A stretch of DNA of 39,474 bases from an uncultured Clostridia bacterium (lineage in GTDB: Bacteria > Bacillota_I > Bacilli_A > RF39 > UBA660): positions 1 to 39,474 of the forward strand of contig CAMVLU010000004.1 in the NCBI GenBank assembly GCA_947168405.1, written 5' to 3'. Positions 574 to 2,558 of the stretch are shown in pieces (positions within the stretch are counted from its first letter, which is position 1; the number at the start of each line of letters is the position of its first letter). A program made the translations under genes and the position numbers. Below the pieces are notes generated by a model. That model saw only the letters and a program-made list of their open reading frames with translations, made no database searches and had not been told where the DNA came from.

Positions 574-615
574 AAAAAAAAGAATTTAGACACTAATCTA
601 AACTCTTTTTTTTCT
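574..615. terminator. Bidirectional intrinsic terminator
   Basis: A stem of AAAAAAGAATTTAGA and TCTAAACTCTTTTTT surrounds a short CACTAA loop. On the minus strand the single mismatch becomes a G-U pair, so it fits that direction best. It separates the KilA-N gene from the sortase operon, and the TAG stop of the minus-strand gene (598-600) lies inside it. Confidence 0.75.
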
Positions 616-1413
616 TCTTCTACTTATTATAAATATTATTAATTTTAATAATTCTAATATTATTCCTATAATACAAATATATAATATATATTTAATATTA
701 TCATTAAAGATATTTTTTATTATATTTGATACAGAAGTATTCCAAAACTTAATAGATGATATATTTATTTTAGAAACAATAAATATATAACTAACTATAA
801 ATAATAAAATAGATGTAATTACAGGAATAGATAAAGTTATTTTTTTAAATAATATTCTAGTAATTATAGATAATATTACAAATAAAGATAATATACTAAT
901 AAATAATATATTTATTAACTTATTATATTTAGTAAAAGTTTTATTTAAATCATTTATTTTATCACTTATTATAATTCTATTTGTATATATTTTAAGAAAT
1001 TCTTCTTTAAATAAATTAATAGAATCATCATCAGTAATTGTAATATTAATTTTATTACAATATTCTTCTATATTACTATTTAATTTATCTTTTATTTTAC
1101 TTGTATCTATTTCTATTTTTTTACCTTTATAAAAATTATCCACATTTTTGTTAATAATTTCTTTTAAGTCATCTTCTGTAAATAAATTATTTTTAATACT
1201 TATATCAAATCCAGAAGGTCTTATATAATTTTCAAAATCATTATCTATTTCAGTATATAATTCATGATAATAATTAGTTTTATCTAATTGTTTTATAAAA
1301 TAATTTTTATTTAAAACAGTTAATTTTAAAGTAAATAATATTATTAAACTAAATAAACAAATTGTTAAAACTAATTCTAATAAATAATATATTAATACTT
1401 TTTTATTTTTCAT
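598..1413 (-). CDS. Multi-pass membrane protein of the sortase operon
   Basis: A protein of 271 residues with one N-terminal membrane segment (about residues 8-30), a large presumably extracellular region of about 130 residues rich in Asn, Asp and Lys, then three hydrophobic segments near the C-terminus and a basic RRRKKR tail. I do not recognise the family. I chose the ATG at 1413 because GGTGAG lies five bases upstream; the frame also extends to a GTG at 1422 with a poorly placed ribosome site. The start overlaps the end of the sortase gene by 11 bases, so it is probably translationally coupled and works with the sortase or its substrate in the envelope. That link is inference from context. 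Confidence 0.75.
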   Translation of the reverse strand: MKNKKVLIYYLLELVLTICLFSLIILFTLKLTVLNKNYFIKQLDKTNYYHELYTEIDNDFENYIRPSGFDISIKNNLFTEDDLKEIINKNVDNFYKGKKIEIDTSKIKDKLNSNIEEYCNKINITITDDDSINLFKEEFLKIYTNRIIISDKINDLNKTFTKYNKLINILFISILSLFVILSIITRILFKKITLSIPVITSILLFIVSYIFIVSKINISSIKFWNTSVSNIIKNIFNDNIKYILYICIIGIILELLKLIIFIISRRRKKRV

Positions 1414-2041
1414 AAGACTCACCTACCTTTTTAGCATATACTAAAAATCTATGTGTTTTATGACCAATTGTATTAACAGGATAACATGTATAAATCATTA
1501 ATACTTCTTTATCTTTATAAAATGGGAAAGCATCATTATCTTTAGCATCAATTACTCTAGTACTTTCTACTTCATATGTAAAAGTTCCATATACAGCATT
1601 TATAGTAATTTTATCTCCAACTTTAATTTCTGGTAAATGATATAAAAATCCACGATCATTATGACCAGCTAAAATAATTGTTCCACCTTCACCTGGAAAT
1701 AAACTTCCTGAATAATGACCTATACCATATCTCATAATATCCAATGTATCTCCTTGAAAAACTGGTAAATTCACATTAATACTTGGAATATCTAAAGTAG
1801 CAAATTCTTTACCCCAAAGAGGATAATCTTTTAATCTTTTAGAAACATTATCAAATTTAACTTCTGGATAGGTAATATCTTTTTCTTCAATAGAAATCAT
1901 ATTAACAATATTAATATAGTTATTTATTTTATCAATAAATACAAAATGAATTATTAAAATGATAATAGATACAAAGAAAAAAGAAATTACTATCTGTTCA
2001 GTAATTTCTTTTAAAATGTTTCTCTTGTTCTTCTTATGCAT
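1403..2041 (-). CDS. Class D-like sortase
   Basis: A membrane-anchored cysteine transpeptidase of 212 residues that would cleave a sorting signal and attach the protein to the cell wall. The N-terminus is cytoplasmic and basic, followed by one membrane helix (about residues 16-36). The sortase barrel runs from about 84 to 204, with catalytic His127 in LAGHND, Cys186 in YTCYP and Arg198 in HRFLVYA. The GIGHYSGSLFPGEGG and LAGH blocks resemble class D enzymes more than class A or B. It overlaps the upstream candidate substrate gene by 8 bases and the downstream membrane protein gene by 11, so all three form one operon. The class assignment is less sure than the sortase call itself. Confidence 0.93.
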   Translation of the reverse strand: MHKKNKRNILKEITEQIVISFFFVSIIILIIHFVFIDKINNYINIVNMISIEEKDITYPEVKFDNVSKRLKDYPLWGKEFATLDIPSINVNLPVFQGDTLDIMRYGIGHYSGSLFPGEGGTIILAGHNDRGFLYHLPEIKVGDKITINAVYGTFTYEVESTRVIDAKDNDAFPFYKDKEVLMIYTCYPVNTIGHKTHRFLVYAKKVGESYEK

Positions 2042-2558
2042 TAAAAGCCTTTTTAGCTATGTATGCAACACCAAATACTGAAACAAAACCAGCAAATGCT
2101 AATACATAATAATTAACACCAGTTTGTTTAGCAATATCTTTATCAGTGATTTTAGTAAATACTGTTTTACCATCTGATTCAAATATTGTTAATACACCAT
2201 CATTTGTTAATGATGCTTTAACAGAAGTCTTACTAGAAATTTCTGCAACAATTGAAACTACTTTTGATTTGTTAGCACTTGATAATTCAGTAAAACTCTT
2301 AGCTCTGTCAGCTTTAGCTAATTCATAGATTTCATCCATCTTTTCAGCAATAAATGTACAATCTGCTTCACTAACTTCATACTTATTTAAATATCTTTCA
2401 ATTTCAGATACTTGATAATCTGAAGGTTTAACAGCCTTTCCATCTACTACATATCCATTAGTCATCTTTGTTTTTAATTCACTTTCAGTCATAGCTTTAA
2501 CATTAACTACACCTAAAAATAATACTAAAACAAATAATGCTGCAAATACTTTTTTCAT
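2034..2558 (-). CDS. Exported protein with sorting-signal-like C-terminus (presumed sortase substrate)
   Basis: A protein of 174 residues that starts with a clear signal peptide (MKK, hydrophobic core, likely cleavage after VKA at residue 22). The mature part is about 120 residues, mostly helical, with one Cys67. The C-terminus has the layout of a sorting signal: AKQTG at 143-147, a hydrophobic stretch at about 149-167, then KK at 169-170. The usual Leu and Pro of LPxTG are missing; only TG is kept. GGAGGGAG lies just upstream of the ATG. It is first in the operon, directly before the sortase, which supports the substrate role. Alternatively it may simply be a C-terminally membrane-anchored protein. 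Confidence 0.8.
   Translation of the reverse strand: MKKVFAALFVLVLFLGVVNVKAMTESELKTKMTNGYVVDGKAVKPSDYQVSEIERYLNKYEVSEADCTFIAEKMDEIYELAKADRAKSFTELSSANKSKVVSIVAEISSKTSVKASLTNDGVLTIFESDGKTVFTKITDKDIAKQTGVNYYVLAFAGFVSVFGVAYIAKKAFNA

Follow-up and report, generated by a model that had tools for sequence, protein, structure and literature searches.

The stretch of DNA analysed here (39,474 nucleotides, contig CAMVLU010000004.1 of GenBank assembly GCA_947168405.1, from an uncultured bacterium of the RF39 lineage; hereafter, the window) raises the question of whether a sortase can keep a substrate of its own whose sorting signal, AKQTG, lacks the proline of LPxTG, and of what such a pair might serve. 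The source genome is a 1.44-Mb draft in 127 contigs, 88% complete, and its named relatives are uncultured Bacilli of the gut and rumen.

Three overlapping genes make up the locus, all on the minus strand: 2034-2558 (174 aa), 1403-2041 (212 aa), and, in the open reading frame list, 598-1422 (274 aa from a GTG codon). A first reading of the locus from sequence alone (here, the sequence-only reading) had described an exported protein, a sortase, and a membrane protein. The reading frames and the Pfam search agree with this layout, and in that search only the middle gene was recognised, as a sortase. For the third gene, the likelier start is an in-frame ATG at 1413, which gives 271 aa and has the sequence AGGTGAG immediately upstream. 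The first gene shares 8 bp with the second, and the second shares 11 bp with the third, counted from this ATG. We refer to the first and third products as “sub” and “mem”, respectively, and to the trio as the cassette. Its features are as follows.

2034..2558, minus strand: exported small protein sub, candidate dedicated sortase substrate, 174 aa; homologues adjoin a sortase, no Pfam or NCBIfam family
2493..2558, minus strand: signal peptide of sub, residues 1-22, consensus K2, K3, and A22 (conservation in 78 homologues)
2118..2132, minus strand: putative sorting motif AKQTG of sub, residues 143-147, with T146 the sole invariant residue of the family
2055..2111, minus strand: C-terminal hydrophobic segment of sub, residues 150-168 (sequence; weak anchor-model matches in relatives)
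2037..2054, minus strand: charged tail KKAFNA of sub, residues 169-174
1403..2041, minus strand: class D-like sortase, 212 aa (Pfam PF04203; NCBIfam class D models best, under cut-off; nearest solved structure 2ln7)
1934..1993, minus strand: predicted N-terminal membrane anchor of the sortase, residues 17-36 (sequence; conserved in the alignment)
1661..1663, minus strand: catalytic His127, invariant in 74 sortases
1484..1486, minus strand: catalytic Cys186 (YTCYP), invariant in 74 sortases
1448..1450, minus strand: catalytic Arg198, invariant in 74 sortases
598..1413, minus strand (GTG at 1422 possible as start): membrane partner mem, 271 aa from the likelier ATG (linkage to the sortase; AlphaFold2; no sequence family)

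Just past the cassette lies a gene for a KilA-N domain protein (2-565), truncated by the start of the window. A promoter scan was uninformative in this AT-rich DNA (34 consensus matches versus 24.5 expected).

The sortase and a sorting signal without proline

The sortase domain is unambiguous (Pfam PF04203, E = 4.2e-27; 94.8 bits against a curated cut-off of 26.6). His127, Cys186, and Arg198 stand exactly where the sequence-only reading had placed them in calling the enzyme complete, and none of the three varies among 74 relatives. Both NCBIfam class D models match all 74 relatives, with the best E-values among the sortase classes. On the window sortase they are also the top-scoring models but stay under their curated cut-offs (NF033746, 110.8 of 165 bits; NF058671, 117.4 of 140 bits), and the class E model scores far lower. 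Because the class D models score best but miss these cut-offs, the enzyme is, by its sequence, suitably called “class D-like”, the label first given to it, rather than a certified class D sortase. With class D sortases it shares the top models (sortase_SrtD and class_D_sortase) and the nearest solved structure, 2ln7, and the substrate of Clostridium perfringens SrtD is likewise encoded in the same operon (PMC4498605). It differs from them in scoring below the class cut-offs, in having a conserved membrane partner, and in lying near capsule rather than sporulation genes. The substrates differ as well: Bacillus anthracis SrtD uses LPNTA and C. perfringens SrtD (PDB 4D70) LPQTGS, whereas the signal of the partner protein here is [ILV]-K-x-T-G, without proline, and not of the LPxTA or LPQTG type that goes with class D.

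The sequence-only reading had noticed that sub has the layout of a sorting signal but not the motif, and the sequence agrees. The protein begins with a signal peptide with the consensus Ala22 and ends in DIAKQTG-VNYYVLAFAGFVSVFGVAYIA-KKAFNA, that is, a motif, a hydrophobic stretch, and a basic C-terminal tail. Neither TIGR01167 nor PF00746 matches the window sub, and weak matches to NCBIfam LPXTG_anchor and Pfam Gram_pos_anchor are found in 27 and 15, respectively, of its 78 relatives. In the alignment of the 78 subs, Thr146 of the motif is invariant and no other column is. Further conserved positions are the signal-peptide Lys residues (K2 and K3, about 87%), the Ala before the cleavage site (A22, 97%), a few structural residues, and the tail Lys (K170, 78%). 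Because Thr146 is invariant and residues of the signal peptide and the tail are among the next most conserved, this pattern is readily interpreted as a footprint of export plus sorting.

After sequences of more than 70% identity had been dropped, 68 subs remained, and all 68 have the motif Thr. The residue that follows it is Gly in 55, Asp in 8, Asn in 3, and Ser in 2; position -3 is Ile, Leu, or Val in 63, position -2 is Lys in 36 and Pro in only 2, and position +3 is Asn or Asp in 43. The consensus is therefore [ILV]-K-x-T-G-x-[ND], and the distance from the Thr to the C terminus is 25 to 39 residues in 67 subs and 54 in the remaining one (L085). Within the window's genus, the tails are strongly conserved as (L)VKQTG-TM-KVR. 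LPYTG and LPFTG occur among the variants (L059 and L068), which ties the sub signal to LPxTG. Since the Thr is invariant, the consensus shared, and proline found in 2 of 68 subs, the tail is a conserved sorting signal with a changed P position rather than a degenerate one; by the same proline count, the change is an old trait of the family, not private to the window's genome. Thus, when the C termini of first-gene homologues were compared, as the sequence-only reading had proposed, the motif proved to be kept. Of the two alternatives raised there, a protein merely held in the membrane and an enzyme that changed its specificity together with a dedicated substrate, the second is favoured by the conservation of Thr, Gly, and the aliphatic residue at -3.

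It could be argued that nothing more than a normal class D or class C locus is involved, in which the end of the substrate has degenerated and carries no meaning, and the standard sortase fold and catalytic residues would fit such a locus. Decay of an ordinary LPxTG tail is ruled out by the Thr in every non-redundant sub; the altered motif is conserved in two bacterial classes, and we regard this explanation as having next to no probability.

Proline is dispensable for sortases elsewhere: the class E enzyme SrtE1 of Streptomyces coelicolor uses LAXTG (PMC5148588). SrtE1 accepts a residue other than proline at the second motif position, as the cassette sortase probably does. It belongs to another sortase class, and the residue is Ala there and mostly Lys in the cassette subs.

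No Pfam or NCBIfam family could be assigned to sub. A family of processed acidic surface proteins, which we took to be a possible relative, was absent among the NCBIfam matches listed, and we found no literature on it. AlphaFold2 predicts a helical and beta domain folded to about residue 137, with low confidence from the motif on; a fold search of the PDB with this model gave no significant match, and a sequence-profile search of the PDB with sub and mem gave only noise.

Distribution, linkage, and natural fusions

A scan of genome contigs with the single sortase sequence found no relatives, and they were collected with an alignment of eight sortases instead. About 90 loci carry the cassette; they belong to Bacilli, both RF39-like and other, to Lachnospiraceae, to Ruminococcus (R. 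bromii), and to Clostridia of the Gemmiger type. Named carriers are Diplocloster, [Clostridium] fimetarium, Lachnospira, Herbinix, R. bromii ATCC 27255, and Gemmiger, in addition to many metagenome-assembled genomes, and further carriers belong to other genera of the window's family and other families of its class. In the window's own genus, sub is found in 8 of 17 genomes and adjoins the sortase and mem. Among the retrieved loci with room for it, sub adjoins the sortase in 81 of 89, and mem is linked to the sortase in 87 of 92. In a maximum-likelihood tree, the cassette sortases group in a single clade with good support, separately from the remaining sortases of their genomes; this clade also contains a few members without a recognisable sub or mem (L109 and the f14 loci). 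At a few loci sub is absent, and a VanZ-like gene stands directly before the sortase instead (L049, 5543-6007; L053, 5359-5835). Because the trio and the motif Thr are conserved across two bacterial classes, the locus is more than a chance arrangement. We found no description of the cassette in the open-access papers searched.

Sortases of the same clade exist without sub and mem in another family of Bacilli (L210 and L215-L217); the next gene there encodes a different sort of exported protein, mostly of about 190 aa, that has a membrane segment.

At seven loci (L078, L106, and L171-L175), sub and the sortase are a single polypeptide, in the order signal peptide, sub domain, two TM segments, and sortase domain. 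These fusions cluster together in the tree with modest support. Five of the seven retain TG just before the first TM segment, and two (L172 and L175) carry Val in place of the motif Thr, so that in at least one lineage it can be enough to tether the ectodomain, with no cleavage. Mem is likewise fused to a VanZ-like domain at two loci (L182, 2823-4136; L184, 2842-4158). The existence of sub-sortase and mem-VanZ gene fusions argues for physical cooperation of the parts.

A 438-aa reading frame (L169, 1591-2907), in which a sortase domain of the cassette type is fused to an N-terminal part resembling camelysin/TasA, was set apart from these fusions, having no sub match and a different position in the tree. 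The same genome also carries an ordinary cassette, and the reading frame preceding the 438-aa one encodes a similar N-terminal part alone.

The window's genome has three other, more distant sortases. Two of these adjoin repeat-domain surface proteins of their own, ending in VPITD or APKTA; signals other than LPxTG are thus common in this organism. In both cases, the sortase gene lies directly 3' of the repeat-domain gene (L003, 1456-3055; L004, 165-1890). The third, a small sortase, directly follows a reading frame resembling a conjugation coupling protein (L002, 1450-3158), suggesting a mobile-element context. A search for anchor signals in the genome also gave NPQTG, NPKTG, and VPNTA proteins, and in a pattern search of the genome, KQTG in frame before a C-terminal hydrophobic segment occurs in sub alone. 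So far as these searches reach, the proline-less signal is private to the gene beside the cassette sortase. The sequence-only reading had held that wide pairing of the sortase with LPxTG proteins elsewhere in the genome would speak against a changed specificity. Proline-containing signals are indeed found elsewhere, and the VPITD and APKTA proteins among them have sortases of their own next door; the NPQTG, NPKTG, and VPNTA proteins may also be served by the cassette sortase.

Pilus-type loci with two sortases each were seen in relatives of the same genus or family (L021, L022, L023, and L139). In the first three, one substrate ends in ELPSTGG and the other in LVQTG or LAQTG, without proline.

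These observations bear on a different explanation, in which sub is never cut and is a membrane protein held by its C-terminal helix, a subunit of the sortase, whose real substrates would be, e.g., the NPQTG, NPKTG, and VPNTA proteins. The orphan proline-type signals of the genome would suit it, as would the fusions, which fix the sub ectodomain permanently on the sortase and in two cases have lost the Thr. A passive anchor, however, hardly explains the invariant Thr, the prevalent Gly, or variants passing through LPYTG and LPFTG, nor the TG kept in most of the fusions, and we consider this explanation quite improbable. We judge it very probable that the sortase and sub form a dedicated pair, with a signal that lacks proline and with mem as a fixed partner in the membrane.

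AbpA and SrtB of oral streptococci are a described case of one sortase whose single substrate is encoded next door and has a signal of its own (PMC4974636). That system differs in its LPKTS signal with essential L and P, in the absence of a hydrophobic tail, and in comprising a class B enzyme and an amylase adhesin.

The membrane partner

In the AlphaFold2 model (pLDDT 94.1, pTM 0.86), mem has one N-terminal TM segment, a helical ectodomain of about 120 aa, and three TM helices. Its sequence matched no known family in the Pfam and NCBIfam searches. The top fold matches are structures of the lipoprotein transacylase Lit (7b0o and 7b0p; probability up to 0.77, TM score 0.43 to 0.52). Lit structures take ranks 1, 2, 4, and 8 with E values of 0.6 to 3.7, which are not significant. 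The helix layout is similar, but the mem family has no conserved His (at most 24 of 77 sequences in any alignment column); its conserved residues are Tyr143, Gly68, Tyr48, and Tyr49. A relationship to Lit was set aside, given the absent His and the weak fold scores; a Lit gene for comparison was not found in 58 genomes of the family. Mem is best regarded as an undescribed partner, possibly built on a Lit-like frame, with nothing that points to Lit chemistry. The suggestion in the sequence-only reading that the membrane protein is a specific partner of the sortase is supported by its near-constant linkage to the sortase and by the mem-VanZ fusion.

VanZ-like genes border many other cassettes. 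In some species of the genus, a second copy of mem lies upstream of the cassette (L031, 4110-4937; L032, 4543-5355).

Capsule neighbourhoods and a proposed mechanism

The surroundings of the cassette were searched with single-sequence capsule probes (BY-kinase, CpsB-type PHP phosphatase, sugar transferase, Wzx, LCP, and VanZ). BY-kinase, CpsB, sugar transferase, and VanZ are frequent neighbours. Of 61 long loci, at least 30 carry a capsule gene, VanZ excluded, no more than 6 kb from the cassette. In a set of 243 genomes from the family, 21 were counted as cassette carriers, by the criterion of a sortase match at E < 1e-30. The BY-kinase model TIGR01007 finds a match in 18 of these versus 50 of the 222 others (one-sided Fisher p = 1.2e-8, a value that ignores kinship), and the three cassette genomes without it are 69 to 89% complete. 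Within the 18 genomes, BY-kinase lies within 3 kb of the cassette in 6 (binomial p = 7e-10, again ignoring kinship). It is found in 4 of the 11 genomes that have solely a more distant sortase (E of 1e-15 to 1e-25). No capsule genes are near the cassette in the window or elsewhere in its genus; the window's genome has a set of Wzz, BY-kinase, CpsB, and sugar transferase on a different contig.

A precedent for a capsule role, not a proof of it, may be seen in Mediterraneibacter gnavus SrtB4 (RGna_12035, as assigned from the locus tags of the paper). Mutants deleted for srtB4, a gene inside a capsule cluster, no longer present a capsule, and complementation restores presentation; the authors of this 2026 study consider it unlikely that the sortase catalyses capsule production directly, and describe the M. 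gnavus SrtB homologues as a distinct clade with candidate substrates nearby (PMC13121745). SrtB4 resembles the cassette sortase in being encoded among capsule genes (LCP and a Tyr phosphatase) and differs in being of class B according to the authors and in having LCP next door instead of the order sub-sortase-mem.

There are two ways to interpret these associations. (i) The pair may be dedicated but have no capsule role, the envelope genes being merely co-located and sub having an unrelated surface task. The cassettes of the window's genus, with no capsule gene nearby, are in keeping with this, and the presence of BY-kinase may track genome content or kinship. It accounts poorly for the close proximity of BY-kinase in 6 genomes and for its much higher frequency in cassette genomes than in those with more distant sortases alone, as well as for the VanZ-mem fusion and the M. 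gnavus precedent, and we think it unlikely. (ii) The cassette probably serves capsule display across the family. In the window's own genus, which has no adjoining capsule genes, such a role rests on kinship and co-occurrence, and for the window's own genome we propose it more tentatively than for the family. Taken as a whole, our reading of the locus as a dedicated sortase-substrate cassette serving capsule display has a probability of about 0.62; within it, the pairing of the sortase with sub is strongly supported, while cleavage, the acceptor, the role of mem, and capsule function in this organism are inferred.

On this reading, Sec would export sub, the signal peptide would be cut off at Ala22, and the hydrophobic segment and basic tail at the C terminus would keep the protein in the membrane for a time. 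The membrane-anchored sortase would cleave between T146 and G147 within [ILV]-K-x-T-G, and sub would be joined via Thr146 to an envelope acceptor, most simply a peptidoglycan precursor. Mem, with its single TM segment, ectodomain, and three further TM helices, would act as a partner or scaffold of the sortase. The anchored sub would probably organise or hold polysaccharide or its export machinery.

A more far-reaching version, in which sub is joined to capsular polysaccharide still being made, or to the lipid that carries it, and mem (with VanZ) is an acceptor-side partner, is in our view very doubtful. If it were true, the cassette would be a monoderm counterpart of the PEP-CTERM/exosortase exopolysaccharide systems, and the fusions of some lineages would be a reduced form of it, a sortase that is its own substrate and cuts the N-terminal domain it carries. 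In PEP-CTERM/EpsH systems, C-terminal sorting signals are linked to exopolysaccharide loci (PMC1569441). EpsH is an unrelated multispanning membrane enzyme of diderms, whereas the cassette enzyme is a true sortase.

Proline-less signals, each with its matching sortase, are available here as a large natural set that can help in understanding sortase specificity and in engineering it. The natural fusion of a sortase with its substrate is a further, unusual find. Culturable carriers exist in Ruminococcus bromii and Diplocloster. For the biology of these organisms, the cassette, with one small substrate, its defined putative cleavage site, and one conserved membrane partner, is a candidate for the missing link between sortase and capsule in many gut Bacilli and Clostridia.
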